Below are positions 8,562 through 56,627 of a stretch of 64,000 nucleotides of DNA, piece after piece. Location of the stretch: the NCBI GenBank assembly GCA_018334015.1, contig JAGXTI010000014.1, forward strand, positions 62,001 through 126,000. Reading direction: 5' to 3'. The translations under genes and the position numbers were made by a program. Under the pieces are notes generated by a model, which saw nothing but the letters and a program-made list of their open reading frames with translations, was not told the origin of the DNA and did not search any database. The stretch is from Silanimonas sp. (GTDB lineage Bacteria; Pseudomonadota; Gammaproteobacteria; Xanthomonadales; Xanthomonadaceae). Positions within the stretch are counted from its first letter, which is position 1. Every line of letters starts with the position of its first letter.

Positions 8562-9022
8562 GGGGCAATTCGGAGCCGACACCCTTGATAGGGCCGTCAG
8601 CGCGCATGCAGCGGGACGCGGAGCCTGAGCCGTCGCGTCCGCAGGTCGCGCGAGGGCAGGCGCGAGAGCATGGCCCTGTTCCGTGCTCCGGCAGGCCGGG
8701 ACGGCTCATAGCAGCCCTCTGCTGCGACAAGCCGGGACGCGCCCGGAGCAGCCCCCCCGCCGCGACAGGCATGGGGCCTGCCTTGCGGGGTGCTTCGTGG
8801 CTCCGGCGGTCATGAAGAAAACAGCATGAATCTTGGCTTGGCTTGGCTTCGCTTCGCATCTTTCGTCCAATGCCCATCAACGAGCGCCGCGCCAGCGCGG
8901 CCTGACGGATAGCGAAGCGAGCCAAGGATGGCGAGCGGCGGCGAATGCGGAGCGGGACGCGGAGCCTGAGCCGTCGCGTCCGCAGGTCGCGCGTCGGCAG
9001 GCGCGTCGGCAGGCGCGAGTGA
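8562..9022. repeat. Repeat array: module B fragment, truncated module A, module B
   Basis: This 461-bp gap has no credible gene. It holds two copies of an invariant 42-nt hairpin core at 8611-8652 and 8952-8993, which also occurs twice at 55.4-55.9 kb. Between the cores is a shortened copy of module A (about 8725-8815) lacking the apical part seen elsewhere, then the rest of module B (about 8835-9016). A 10-11 bp GCGTCGGCAG unit is duplicated at 8991-9011. The array ends exactly at the heptosyltransferase stop codon, which lies inside a CTAG. Confidence 0.8.
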
Positions 9023-34371: not shown

Positions 34372-34770
34372 GATGCTAGCAGCCTGTCGGACATGCCCCG
34401 TCCACCACGGTCTCATTCTGCGCTGCAGCAGGCTGGGACGCGCTCGGAGCAGCCCCCCCGCCGCGACAGGCCGGGGGCCGGCGGCGGACTCGGGCCGACT
34501 GTTGTGCGGCAAGAAACCCGACGGGCCGACCGAAGGGCGCCTCCCTGCGCCTTCGGTCGGTGCGCCCATCCGGGGCGCACCCTGCGGGCCTGGCGTCTGA
34601 TCGCTGGGCTGGCCCTCGAAATCCGCCGCCGGCCCCCAACCTGTCTTGCGGGGTGCTTCTGACGGTCACATCAGGGCCGACACCCCCTGCTCACGAGGGT
34701 GCTTCACGCAGATGTTCCACGCCCTCGCATCAACGGTGAACGGGGGATCGTCCGACAGGCTGCTAGCATC
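34372..34770. mobile_element. Non-autonomous (MITE-like) element with terminal inverted repeats in CTAG
   Basis: A perfect 21-bp inverted repeat bounds the region (34372-34392 and 34750-34770). If the target is taken as TA inside CTAG, the element is 385 bp (34379-34763) with 14-bp perfect terminal repeats GCAGCCTGTCGGAC, TA duplications at 34377-34378 and 34764-34765, and flanks GATGC/GCATC. Inside is one copy of module A (about 34430-34660), with no credible gene. TA duplication in CTAG is the habit of IS630/Tc1-mariner elements. The gap between ampD-like and the hydrolase is otherwise empty. Confidence 0.75.
34430..34660. repeat. Module A of the dispersed repeat (long hairpin)
   Basis: A copy of module A with a perfect 16-bp inverted repeat at 34473-34488 and 34622-34637 (GGGGGCCGGCGGCGGA). 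The match extends outwards as GACAGG...CCTGTC and CCCCG...CGGGG. An inner stem pairs 34528-34540 with 34547-34558. The same module is found at 55.0 and 55.5 kb and, shortened, at 8.7 kb. Confidence 0.8.
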
Positions 34771-54841: not shown

Positions 54842-54983
54842 TTATTGTCGCCCTGACTGCGTTGGCGCGGCCCTGGCGCGAGCGACTTTGGCGAGGATGT
54901 GATCGGCGCTGACTGTCCAGAGATGTCGCGGAAGAAGCGCCCGACCATGTTCAGCCACGACGCACGGGTCGTGGTGCCCGGAG
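54842..54983 (-). pseudogene. Degraded C-terminal fragment of an IS630-family transposase
   Basis: On the minus strand one frame reads RASWLNMVGRFFRDIS. After a frame change it continues as LWTVSADHILAKVARARAA, then a stop at 54842. Both blocks are characteristic of the C-terminus of IS630 transposases (SWLN-VERFF, then WT-SA--IL-KV). About 25 codons normally between them are missing, so the two parts are joined by a deletion and frameshift. The DDE catalytic residues are not present. The stop lies 26 bp from the element's left end, as in intact IS630 copies. Confidence 0.75.
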
Positions 54984-54997
54984 CAGTACCCACACCG

Positions 54998-55946
54998 CAG
55001 CAGGCCGGGAGCCCGGAACTGCACCTCCGCCGCGACAGGCCGGGGGCCTGCGGCGGACTCGGGCCGGTTGGTGTGCGGCAAGCAACCCGACGGGCCGACC
55101 GAAGGGCGCATCCTTGGCGCCCTCGGTCGGTGCGCCCGTCCGAGGCGCACCCTGCGGGCCTGTCGTCTGATCACCGGGCTGGCCCTCGAATTCCGCCGCC
55201 GGCCCCCAGCCTGTCTTGCGGGGTGCTTCGCGGCTGCGGCGGTGATGGCGTGAGTAGCACAAAGCCGTCTTCCGAACTCCATCTTCACTTCGCATCCCTC
55301 GGCCGATGCCCGTCACCGAGCGCCGCGCCAGCGCGGCCTCGCGGACAGCGAAGCGAGCCATGGAGGGCGAGCGTCGGCGAATGCGGAGCGGGACGCGGAG
55401 CCTGAGCCGTCGCGTCCGCAGGTCGCGCGAGGGCAGGCGCGAGGGCGTGGTCTTAATCCGTGCGCCAGCAGGTCGGGACGCGCCCGGAGCAGCACCCCCG
55501 CCACGACAGGCCGGGGCCTGTGGCGGACTCGGGCCGGTTGGTGTGCGGCAAGCAAGCCGACGGGCCGACCGATGGGCACATCCTGTGCCCGCGGTCGGTG
55601 CGCCCGTCCGGGGCGCACCCTGCGGGCCTGGCGTCTGATCACCTGGTTGGCCCTCGAAATCCGCCGCAAGCCCCCAGCCTGCCTTGCGGGGTGCTTCGAG
55701 GCTGCGCAGTTGATGCCGGAACGCGCACGAAGCCCGTCTTCGCTTCGCATCCTTTGGGTGGATCCCATCCTGCGGCCAATGCCCATCAACGAGCGCCGCG
55801 CCAGCGCGGCCTCGTGGACAGCGAAGCGAGCCAGGGATGGCGAGCGGCGGCGAATGCGTAGCGGGACGCGGAGCCTGAGCCGTCGCGTCCGCAGGTCGCG
55901 CGTCGGCAGGCGCGAGGGCATGGCCTTGTTCCGCGCTCCAGCAGGC
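54998..55946. repeat. Two tandem A+B repeat units (about 470 bp each)
   Basis: Unit 1 spans about 54998-55467, unit 2 about 55468-55946. The invariant 42-nt core of module B is at 55388-55429 and 55861-55902, exactly 473 bp apart. Module A of each unit has an inner stem (55097-55109 with 55116-55128; 55567-55580 with 55584-55596). The units are similar but not identical, so this is an old duplication. No gene is supported here, although several long Arg/Pro-rich frames are open. Confidence 0.85.
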
Positions 55947-55958
55947 CGGCGCAGTGCA

Positions 55959-56627
55959 CTAGCGGTTCGGGTCGTTGTTCGCGAGGCTTTGGTCGATCCG
56001 TGCGAACACCTGCCGGGCGGCTTCCGCCGAAGCGGGATCGGCATGCAGCCGGTTTACCGCCTCGGCCAGCGCACGGGCACCGACAAAGGCGCAGCCGGCC
56101 TTGAGCTGGTGCAGCACACGGCGCACCGCCTCGGCATCGCCGGCGGCCAGCGCCACCTCGAGCCGCTCGCGTTGGTGCGGCAACTCGGCCAAGAACAGTT
56201 CGCGCAGCCGGGTCAGGGTGTCGGTGGCACCGCCCACGGCGGCCAGCGCGACGCGGTCCTCCCAGTCGGGGTCGCCCAGCCAGGGTCGCAGTGCGATCCG
56301 CAGGGCCGGCGCGGTGATCGGTTTGGCGAGGGCGGCGGCAAAACCGCAGGCCAGCAGCCGGCGACGGCGATCGCCGTCGAGTTCGGCGGTGAAGGCCACC
56401 GCCGGGCTGTCGTTGCCGAGCGCGCGCTGGCGGGCCAGCCAGGCATCGCCTTGGCCATCGGGCAGACCCACATCGACCAGCAGCAGATCGTAACGGGCTT
56501 CGGCGCAGTGGTCGCCGGCCTCAGCCAGTGTGCGCACCGCATCGACCCGCACACCGCCGCACAGGGCATCGGTGACAAAAGCTCGACTGGCGGCGTCGTC
56601 CTCGACCAGCAGGACGGTTAGGCTCAT
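55959..56627 (-). CDS. Orphan response regulator with receiver and Hpt domains
   Basis: A 222-residue protein. Residues 1-120 form a receiver domain with acidic pair Glu9/Asp10, phospho-acceptor Asp52 (LLVDVGLPDG), Thr80 and Lys102 (ALAKPIT). Residues about 125-215 form a histidine phosphotransfer domain with His173 in VLHQLKAGCAFVGA; the usual Gly after Lys is Ala. There is no DNA-binding output, so it is a phosphorelay link. No kinase gene is adjacent. The TAG stop lies in the CTAG at the right end of the 1.1-kb element. Confidence 0.85.
   Translation of the reverse strand: MSLTVLLVEDDAASRAFVTDALCGGVRVDAVRTLAEAGDHCAEARYDLLLVDVGLPDGQGDAWLARQRALGNDSPAVAFTAELDGDRRRRLLACGFAAALAKPITAPALRIALRPWLGDPDWEDRVALAAVGGATDTLTRLRELFLAELPHQRERLEVALAAGDAEAVRRVLHQLKAGCAFVGARALAEAVNRLHADPASAEAARQVFARIDQSLANNDPNR

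Follow-up and report, generated by a model that had tools for sequence, protein, structure and literature searches.

Three long intergenic gaps in a 64,000-nucleotide stretch of Silanimonas sp. DNA share a modular repeat, which raises the question of what kind of element it is and what it might do. This stretch, the window, covers C14:62001-126000 of the own genome (G000, 2.25 Mb in 41 contigs). The initial annotation had described two modules, A and B, in the combinations b-a-B (8.6-9.0 kb), A (34.4-34.7 kb), and A-B-A-B (55.0-55.9 kb), and had not recognized the family. A profile nucleotide search with nhmmer recovered the modules at all three places, and their coordinates bore out these combinations. 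The following features were located.

55006-55245, minus strand (repeat orientation plus; GGA hairpin loops on the minus strand): module A, first copy (nhmmer; alignment and fold with the G003 copies)
55315-55444, plus strand: module B, first copy, three-way junction P1/P2/P3 (nhmmer; alignment fold)
55360-55365, plus strand: P2 loop ATGGAG of the first B (sequence)
55390-55394, plus strand: P3 loop GGGAC of the first B (sequence)
55482-55712, minus strand: module A, second copy (nhmmer; single-strand DNA fold z -4.2; alignment fold)
55574-55590, minus strand: A hairpin h1, loop ATCCT on plus, AGGAT on minus (sequence)
55597-55619, minus strand: A hairpin h2, loop GTCCG on plus, CGGAC on minus (inverted repeat)
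55789-55917, plus strand: module B, second copy (nhmmer; alignment fold)
55833-55838, plus strand: P2 loop AGGGAT of the second B (sequence)
55863-55867, plus strand: P3 loop GGGAC of the second B (sequence)
55905-55913, plus strand: tail GGCAGGCGC of the second B (sequence)
34442-34660, minus strand: lone module A (nhmmer)
34375-34392, no strand: left 18-bp terminal inverted repeat around the lone A (repeat-end search)
34750-34767, no strand: right 18-bp terminal inverted repeat around the lone A (repeat-end search)
8595-8666, plus strand: truncated module B, model positions 58-129 (nhmmer)
8728-8800, minus strand: module A with an internal deletion that removed both GGA hairpins and left the outer arms; the right edge is approximate (query positions 4-54 and 680 onwards matched)
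8880-9006, plus strand: module B, full (nhmmer; covariance model)
8567-8583, plus strand: module E, an end sequence of the ATTTCGGAGCCGACACC type, bordering the 8.6-kb array on its 5' side (sequence search)

At 55.0-55.9 kb, modules A, B, A, and B were arranged head to tail, and two ungapped repeat families, D1 (187 nt) and D2 (148 nt), were 89% and 86% identical between copies, respectively. The 8.6-9.0 kb array contained a partial and a full B, with only the outer arms of one A between them. The 42-nt core of B, described as invariant, was identical in the four window copies; genome-wide, it turned out to be strongly conserved but not invariant. Protein coding was rejected for the 55.0-55.9 kb array, where two of the overlapping ORFs had no Pfam match, and so was a plasmid or phage origin, as 54998-55946 had no match in plasmid and phage searches.

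Many genome copies had been expected from three occurrences in the window, and the 949-base query indeed had at least 103 matches in the own genome. The best other copy of the array was 89% identical across query positions 4-923, and with this number of matches the repeat is not due to chance. We counted at least 42 clusters holding at least 56 A and at least 69 B matches (near full length: 53 A and 56 B), and the A and B letters made up 0.92% of the 2.25 Mb, again a lower bound. All module counts cover the fetched stretches and are lower bounds, each genome search having scored up to 40 candidates; at least one further B lies outside them, at C12:14-132. Eighteen of the 42 clusters ended within 150 bp of a contig end, which indicates that the assembly is broken at these repeats and is a further reason to read the counts as minima. 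The modules of any one cluster were all on the same strand (42 clusters, none mixed), in the order A-(spacer)-B, with a unit of ~470 bp and up to three A per site. No called gene lay inside any of the 42 clusters when an edge overlap of 60 bp was allowed, the gene calls being those of a custom codon-usage script and not of a standard gene finder. Short tandem runs at the B tail, in which the GGCAGGCGC box recurs in steps of ~12, were seen at C2:75475-75532 and on the 3' side of the C40:192574 array.

The two-hairpin structure of the repeat is well supported. A MAFFT alignment of 22 sequences from five Silanimonas genomes folded module B into a three-way junction, consisting of an outer stem P1 (columns 11-26/97-111), hairpin P2 (38-40/47-49), and hairpin P3 (57-71/77-91), followed by the GGCAGGCGC tail. 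Both sides changed in 14 of the 25 predicted pairs. The fold was then compared with 35 further covariance-model matches from 28 chosen loci (26 of 30 fetched, plus L028 and L029), of which at least L028, L029, and L202 are Silanimonas; L184, L185, L211, and L212 were left out, since their genomes (G000 and G001) belong to the training set. In these matches, 97.4% of the cells were paired, versus 33.6-41.9% in slid controls, and 23 of the 25 pairs changed on both sides (shuffle mean 17.4; 0 of 500 shuffles reached 23). This alignment was fitted to the covariance model and leans towards it, and the slide control shows the specific part. Tandem G.A pairs occurred in P3 in 17 of 22 alignment rows and 24 of 35 model-match rows. 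G.U outnumbered A.C clearly in the model-fitted set (27 vs 8) and weakly in the unfitted set (15 vs 7); such an excess is expected if the plus strand of B acts as RNA.

The loops of B mostly followed the patterns A(N)GGA(N) in P2 and NGGAY in P3. For the own genome, P2 carried GGA in all 63 copies matched (of 69 B), as ANGGAN with variable N (ATGGAG in 36 of 63, AAGGAG in 11, AAGGAT in 5, and others), while P3 carried it in 60 of the 61 copies matched (of 69 B; GGGAC in 57 of 61). Among the model matches, GGA was found in 35/35 P2 loops (ATGGAT in 27) and 34/35 P3 loops (AGGAT 11, AGGAC 5, ATGGAT 4), counts that are partly circular because the model was trained on GGA loops. Strict universality of ANGGA was ruled out by ANGAY loops in 8 of the 54 rows with a P2 hairpin, from G001 and G004 (tallied by hand; 7 further alignment rows were without P2). 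The exceptions in P3 were one AGCAC in the own genome and one ACGAC among the model matches. Neighbouring hairpins not chosen by the model showed no enrichment, with GGA in 2/22 intergenic versus 2/43 genic cases (p 0.6). A hairpin scan yielded GGA or TCC loops in 55 + 54 of 266 repeat hairpins versus 21 + 23 of 715 in called genes; repeat copies are not independent, so these counts were set aside in favor of covariation.

The GGA loops of module A were identified independently of the B covariance model. On the minus strand, A formed a long stem enclosing two hairpins, with TCC on the plus strand in 55/55 copies matched for h1 and 54/54 for h2 (of 56 A each). Both sides changed in 17 of its 52 predicted pairs, the RNAalifold covariation term being nil. 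In the four G003 sequences of A, GGA was kept in both hairpins and the stems differed; in B, the loops were likewise more conserved than the stems. Between species, then, the stems change wholesale but the GGA loops and the junction persist, a pattern that suggests selection on a folded nucleic acid. Both modules carry at least two A(N)GGA-type sites in hairpin loops, as in CsrA targets. The loops agree with the ANGGAN hexaloop, the RsmE target type solved by NMR, and with CAGGA(U/A/C)G, the CsrB site type (PMC7652899). The hairpin tips of the repeat thus resemble sites at which the global regulator RsmA/CsrA docks.

The unit of the repeat is a back-to-back pair, <-A B->, with one to three units per site. 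As the A hairpins lie on the minus strand and those of B on the plus strand, the unit faces outwards. A similar arrangement was found in other genera, where 9 of 11 neighbouring B-type pairs were back-to-back and none face to face (hand count among model matches; L226 and L201 are one place and were counted once). The binomial p was 1e-4 versus one in four, a value that ignores kinship between pairs; several of the 11 come from the same genera (g4, g10) and are therefore not independent.

The repeat is not confined to the window, and its modules are not the interior of a known IS. The B covariance model revealed relatives in other Lysobacteraceae: at E<=0.01 it matched 27 of 119 genomes, from 14 of 54 genera, counts that include the own genome and genus. 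Outside Silanimonas, 23 genomes from 13 genera were matched (best E 3e-9), with at least 22 matches in one of them (G140); no match was obtained in 92 of the 119 genomes among the best 30 candidates per genome. Six of the seven other Silanimonas genomes matched the B query, all but G006. The identity of B was 85-100% within the own genome (among the matches listed, n=14) and 70-86% across Silanimonas species (matches of at least 50 bases). A B-core pattern was found in at least 40 stretches of the genome collection, all from Silanimonas or a Lysobacteraceae MAG; this pattern was designed on Silanimonas and is no measure of range. For module A, a search of 8 genomes gave only G003 beyond the own genome at E<0.001 (best 2e-7).

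The family can now be placed, although the window copies match no Rfam family: A and B are two-GGA-hairpin elements of the TwoAYGGAY/CsrA-site type. TwoAYGGAY RNA, predicted to bind CsrA, has a poorly conserved outer stem, two hairpins with GGA loops, and tandem G.A pairs (PMC4333381), and is listed for gamma-Proteobacteria (PMC2864571). The repeat resembles it in all these respects: B contains two AYGGAY-type loops inside a poorly conserved outer stem, those of the own genome being looser, has tandem G.A in one stem, and occurs in Gammaproteobacteria. It differs in its P2/P3 layout, in the P3 loop region, in the GGCAGGCGC tail, and in that a genome holds dozens of copies resembling one another, each combined with a second element. 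Identity with a known Rfam family was rejected for the window copies: the TwoAYGGAY model, RF01731, found nothing in the window, even at E<=10 for 54850-55990, and nothing at E<=1 in the own genome. A relative, L201:2140-2266, which is one of the covariance-model matches, scored 37.5 bits with RF01731 (gathering cut-off 43). Since this relative is nearly a member and the window copies give no match, the repeat is predicted to work like TwoAYGGAY, and membership is not claimed.

Across the family, RF01731 gave matches in 36 of 119 Lysobacteraceae genomes at E<=1, 4 of them above the cut-off, and in 0 of 14 control genomes. Two Lysobacteraceae genomes, G018 and G101, had 17 and 16 matches at E<=1, all below the cut-off, which suggests that other genera also amplified related elements. 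In another Lysobacteraceae genome, G094, a TwoAYGGAY match above threshold (L215 1501-1637, 46 bits) lay beside a sub-threshold naRNA4 match (L215:1410-1485, 40 bits, cut-off 59.5). A sub-threshold match to the Xanthomonadaceae sRNA sX13 was seen at L131:3039-3120 (40.1 bits, cut-off 50), where the locus end cuts the match.

Rfam clan CL00106 includes both TwoAYGGAY and RsmW; the RsmW match at one G003 locus (24.2 bits, cut-off 52) was at chance level. CsrB, RsmX-Y-Z, and RsmW share with the repeat several GGA hairpin loops per RNA. They are stand-alone sRNA genes. In contrast, the repeat is interspersed and has no recognized promoter: a consensus search of 54.7-56.1 kb found neither a sigma-70-like promoter nor an intrinsic terminator. 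A precedent from the same bacterial family is RsmU of Xanthomonas campestris, an RsmA-sequestering sRNA cut from a 3' UTR (PMC7694677). RsmU is a single locus, and the available part of that report mentions no repeat family; altering all four predicted GGA motifs of RsmU abolished neither RsmA binding nor the phenotype (PMC7694677).

With these results in hand, our leading explanation, to which we give about even odds, is that the repeat may be a new form of two-GGA-hairpin RNA, present in high copy number, that probably targets the single RsmA/CsrA by way of read-through transcripts. A csrA gene was found once in 7 of 8 Silanimonas genomes, the exception being the 77% complete assembly of G007. 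Structured RNA-type elements would thus have been written many times into intergenic DNA, and we infer that they are transcribed, bind RsmA, and affect genes. Because the <-A B-> unit faces outwards, read-through transcription, whichever flanking gene it came from, would place one pair of GGA hairpins in the 3' untranslated region. A CsrA dimer can bind two sites on one RNA (PMC7652899), and a single RsmA/CsrA dimer would presumably bind both loops of an element. Most CsrA SELEX hairpins have at most 4 contiguous pairs (PMC7652899), whereas many repeat stems are longer. Each copy might offer a local binding site in a 3' UTR, and all copies combined might form a distributed sponge.

The usual explanation of bacterial interspersed repeats is that they are DNA parasites or terminators. 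In this genome, regulatory RNA of a known type may have turned into a genome-wide repeat, which would link repeats of high copy number with the CsrA/RsmA system across a bacterial family. Whether a global RNA-binding regulator has much of its ligand in repeat DNA is a question now open to direct test. A literature search, with most subscription papers outside its reach, found no report of a CsrA/RsmA-linked high-copy repeat.

A genome-wide RsmA/CsrA sponge of repeat DNA is a more doubtful proposition. In this reading, the well over 100 GGA hairpins, in outward pairs at dozens of gene ends, would supply read-through RNA that titrates RsmA and replaces a dedicated CsrB/RsmZ gene, and the repeat would spread and stay homogeneous because it carries sites for a host global regulator.

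We regard as rather unlikely a REP/BIME-like mobile DNA, the hairpins of which are recognized as single-stranded DNA by a transposase in trans; the outward pairs would be dimers and GGA the recognition bases, with no RNA function. REP, BIME, and REPIN elements are high-copy intergenic stem-loops, often in oppositely oriented dimers, 20-40 bp long, with a GTAG or CGTC tag and often with RAYTs (PMC3733652). The copy number, intergenic sites, and inverted pairs of the repeat fit this description, as does the comparison of orthologous sites. Gaps filled with an array in G000 measured ~46 bp in G004 (L094), 151 bp in G001 (L154), and ~11 bp in G005 (L143; in this case the G000 gap is divided between the C2 end and the C25 start, which are taken to be adjacent). 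Other sites were shared with species-typical letters (C20:23078 with G001 L134, and C22:11275 with G001 L131; ~400 kb plus small loci of G001 were available), and at the C2 end of G000 and in G004 L071 the repeat adjoins the same gene. Shared and empty sites together indicate that copies come and go and are homogenized within species; the empty sites are too diverged to place element ends or a target-site duplication. On the other side, a RAYT-type transposase, suggested earlier as something to look for, was not found: Y1_Tnp (PF01797) had 0 matches in the own genome, while the same search was positive in 5 of 14 control genomes. A RAYT-driven REP was rejected on this basis. Moreover, the modules are ~130 and ~240 nt long with covarying stems, and inspection of the consensus by eye revealed no terminal GTAG or CGTC tag. 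For the regulatory RNA reading, gene conversion or mobilization in trans would be candidate routes of spread and homogenization within species.

Strong bidirectional 3' hairpins between genes, acting as transcription-end or mRNA-stabilizing structures with incidental loop sequences, appear improbable. The intergenic position and strong folds agree with such a role, and of the 32 own-genome clusters with a called gene on the B side, 22 had that gene in opposing orientation, its 3' end towards B (p 0.05). The 24 clusters with genes on both sides were distributed as 12 --, 6 +-, 3 ++, and 3 -+. This orientation bias is weak, and it had no support among the 35 model matches, one of which (L210) overlapped a called ORF: the codirectional cases split 10 to 9. 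The lack of a terminator-like site at 54.7-56.1 kb and the conservation of loops over stems also argue against this role.

The window contains one 393-bp element (34375-34767) with perfect 18-bp inverted repeats and the lone module A inside, and module E occurred at 23 positions across the own-genome stretches that were fetched; judged by eye, it almost always lay at the edge of an array. The initial annotation had placed the modules both inside transposon-like ends and on their own, which holds across the own-genome clusters; such ends are present around the lone A, but they are exceptional. It is very unlikely that E and the inverted-repeat ends define a MITE-like non-autonomous transposon carrying A and B as passengers of a DDE transposase, since the copies lack common terminal inverted repeats (at up to 2 mismatches the 18-bp end occurs at 4 own-genome places, and only one element has both ends), and 400 kb of G001 (no 18-bp end; two poor look-alikes of E) and loci L068-L107 (neither) are without true ends, yet those genomes hold many B. 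Neither E nor the 18-bp ends are general to the arrays. An autonomous IS behind the 18-bp ends was rejected, as no autonomous copy was found in the own genome; near-identical ends were also seen at C27:246 and C31:104528.

A different IS, with a DUF772/DDE_Tnp_1_6 transposase, was found at L047 ~1257-2914 (G000 C20 ~63.8-65.4 kb) and at the contig starts C20:1-106 and C7:1-106. At the single site with both sides seen, CTGAG looks duplicated. The insertion point in module B was identical to the base in all three places, following GGAGCCTGAG in P3, and the IS seems to target the repeat.
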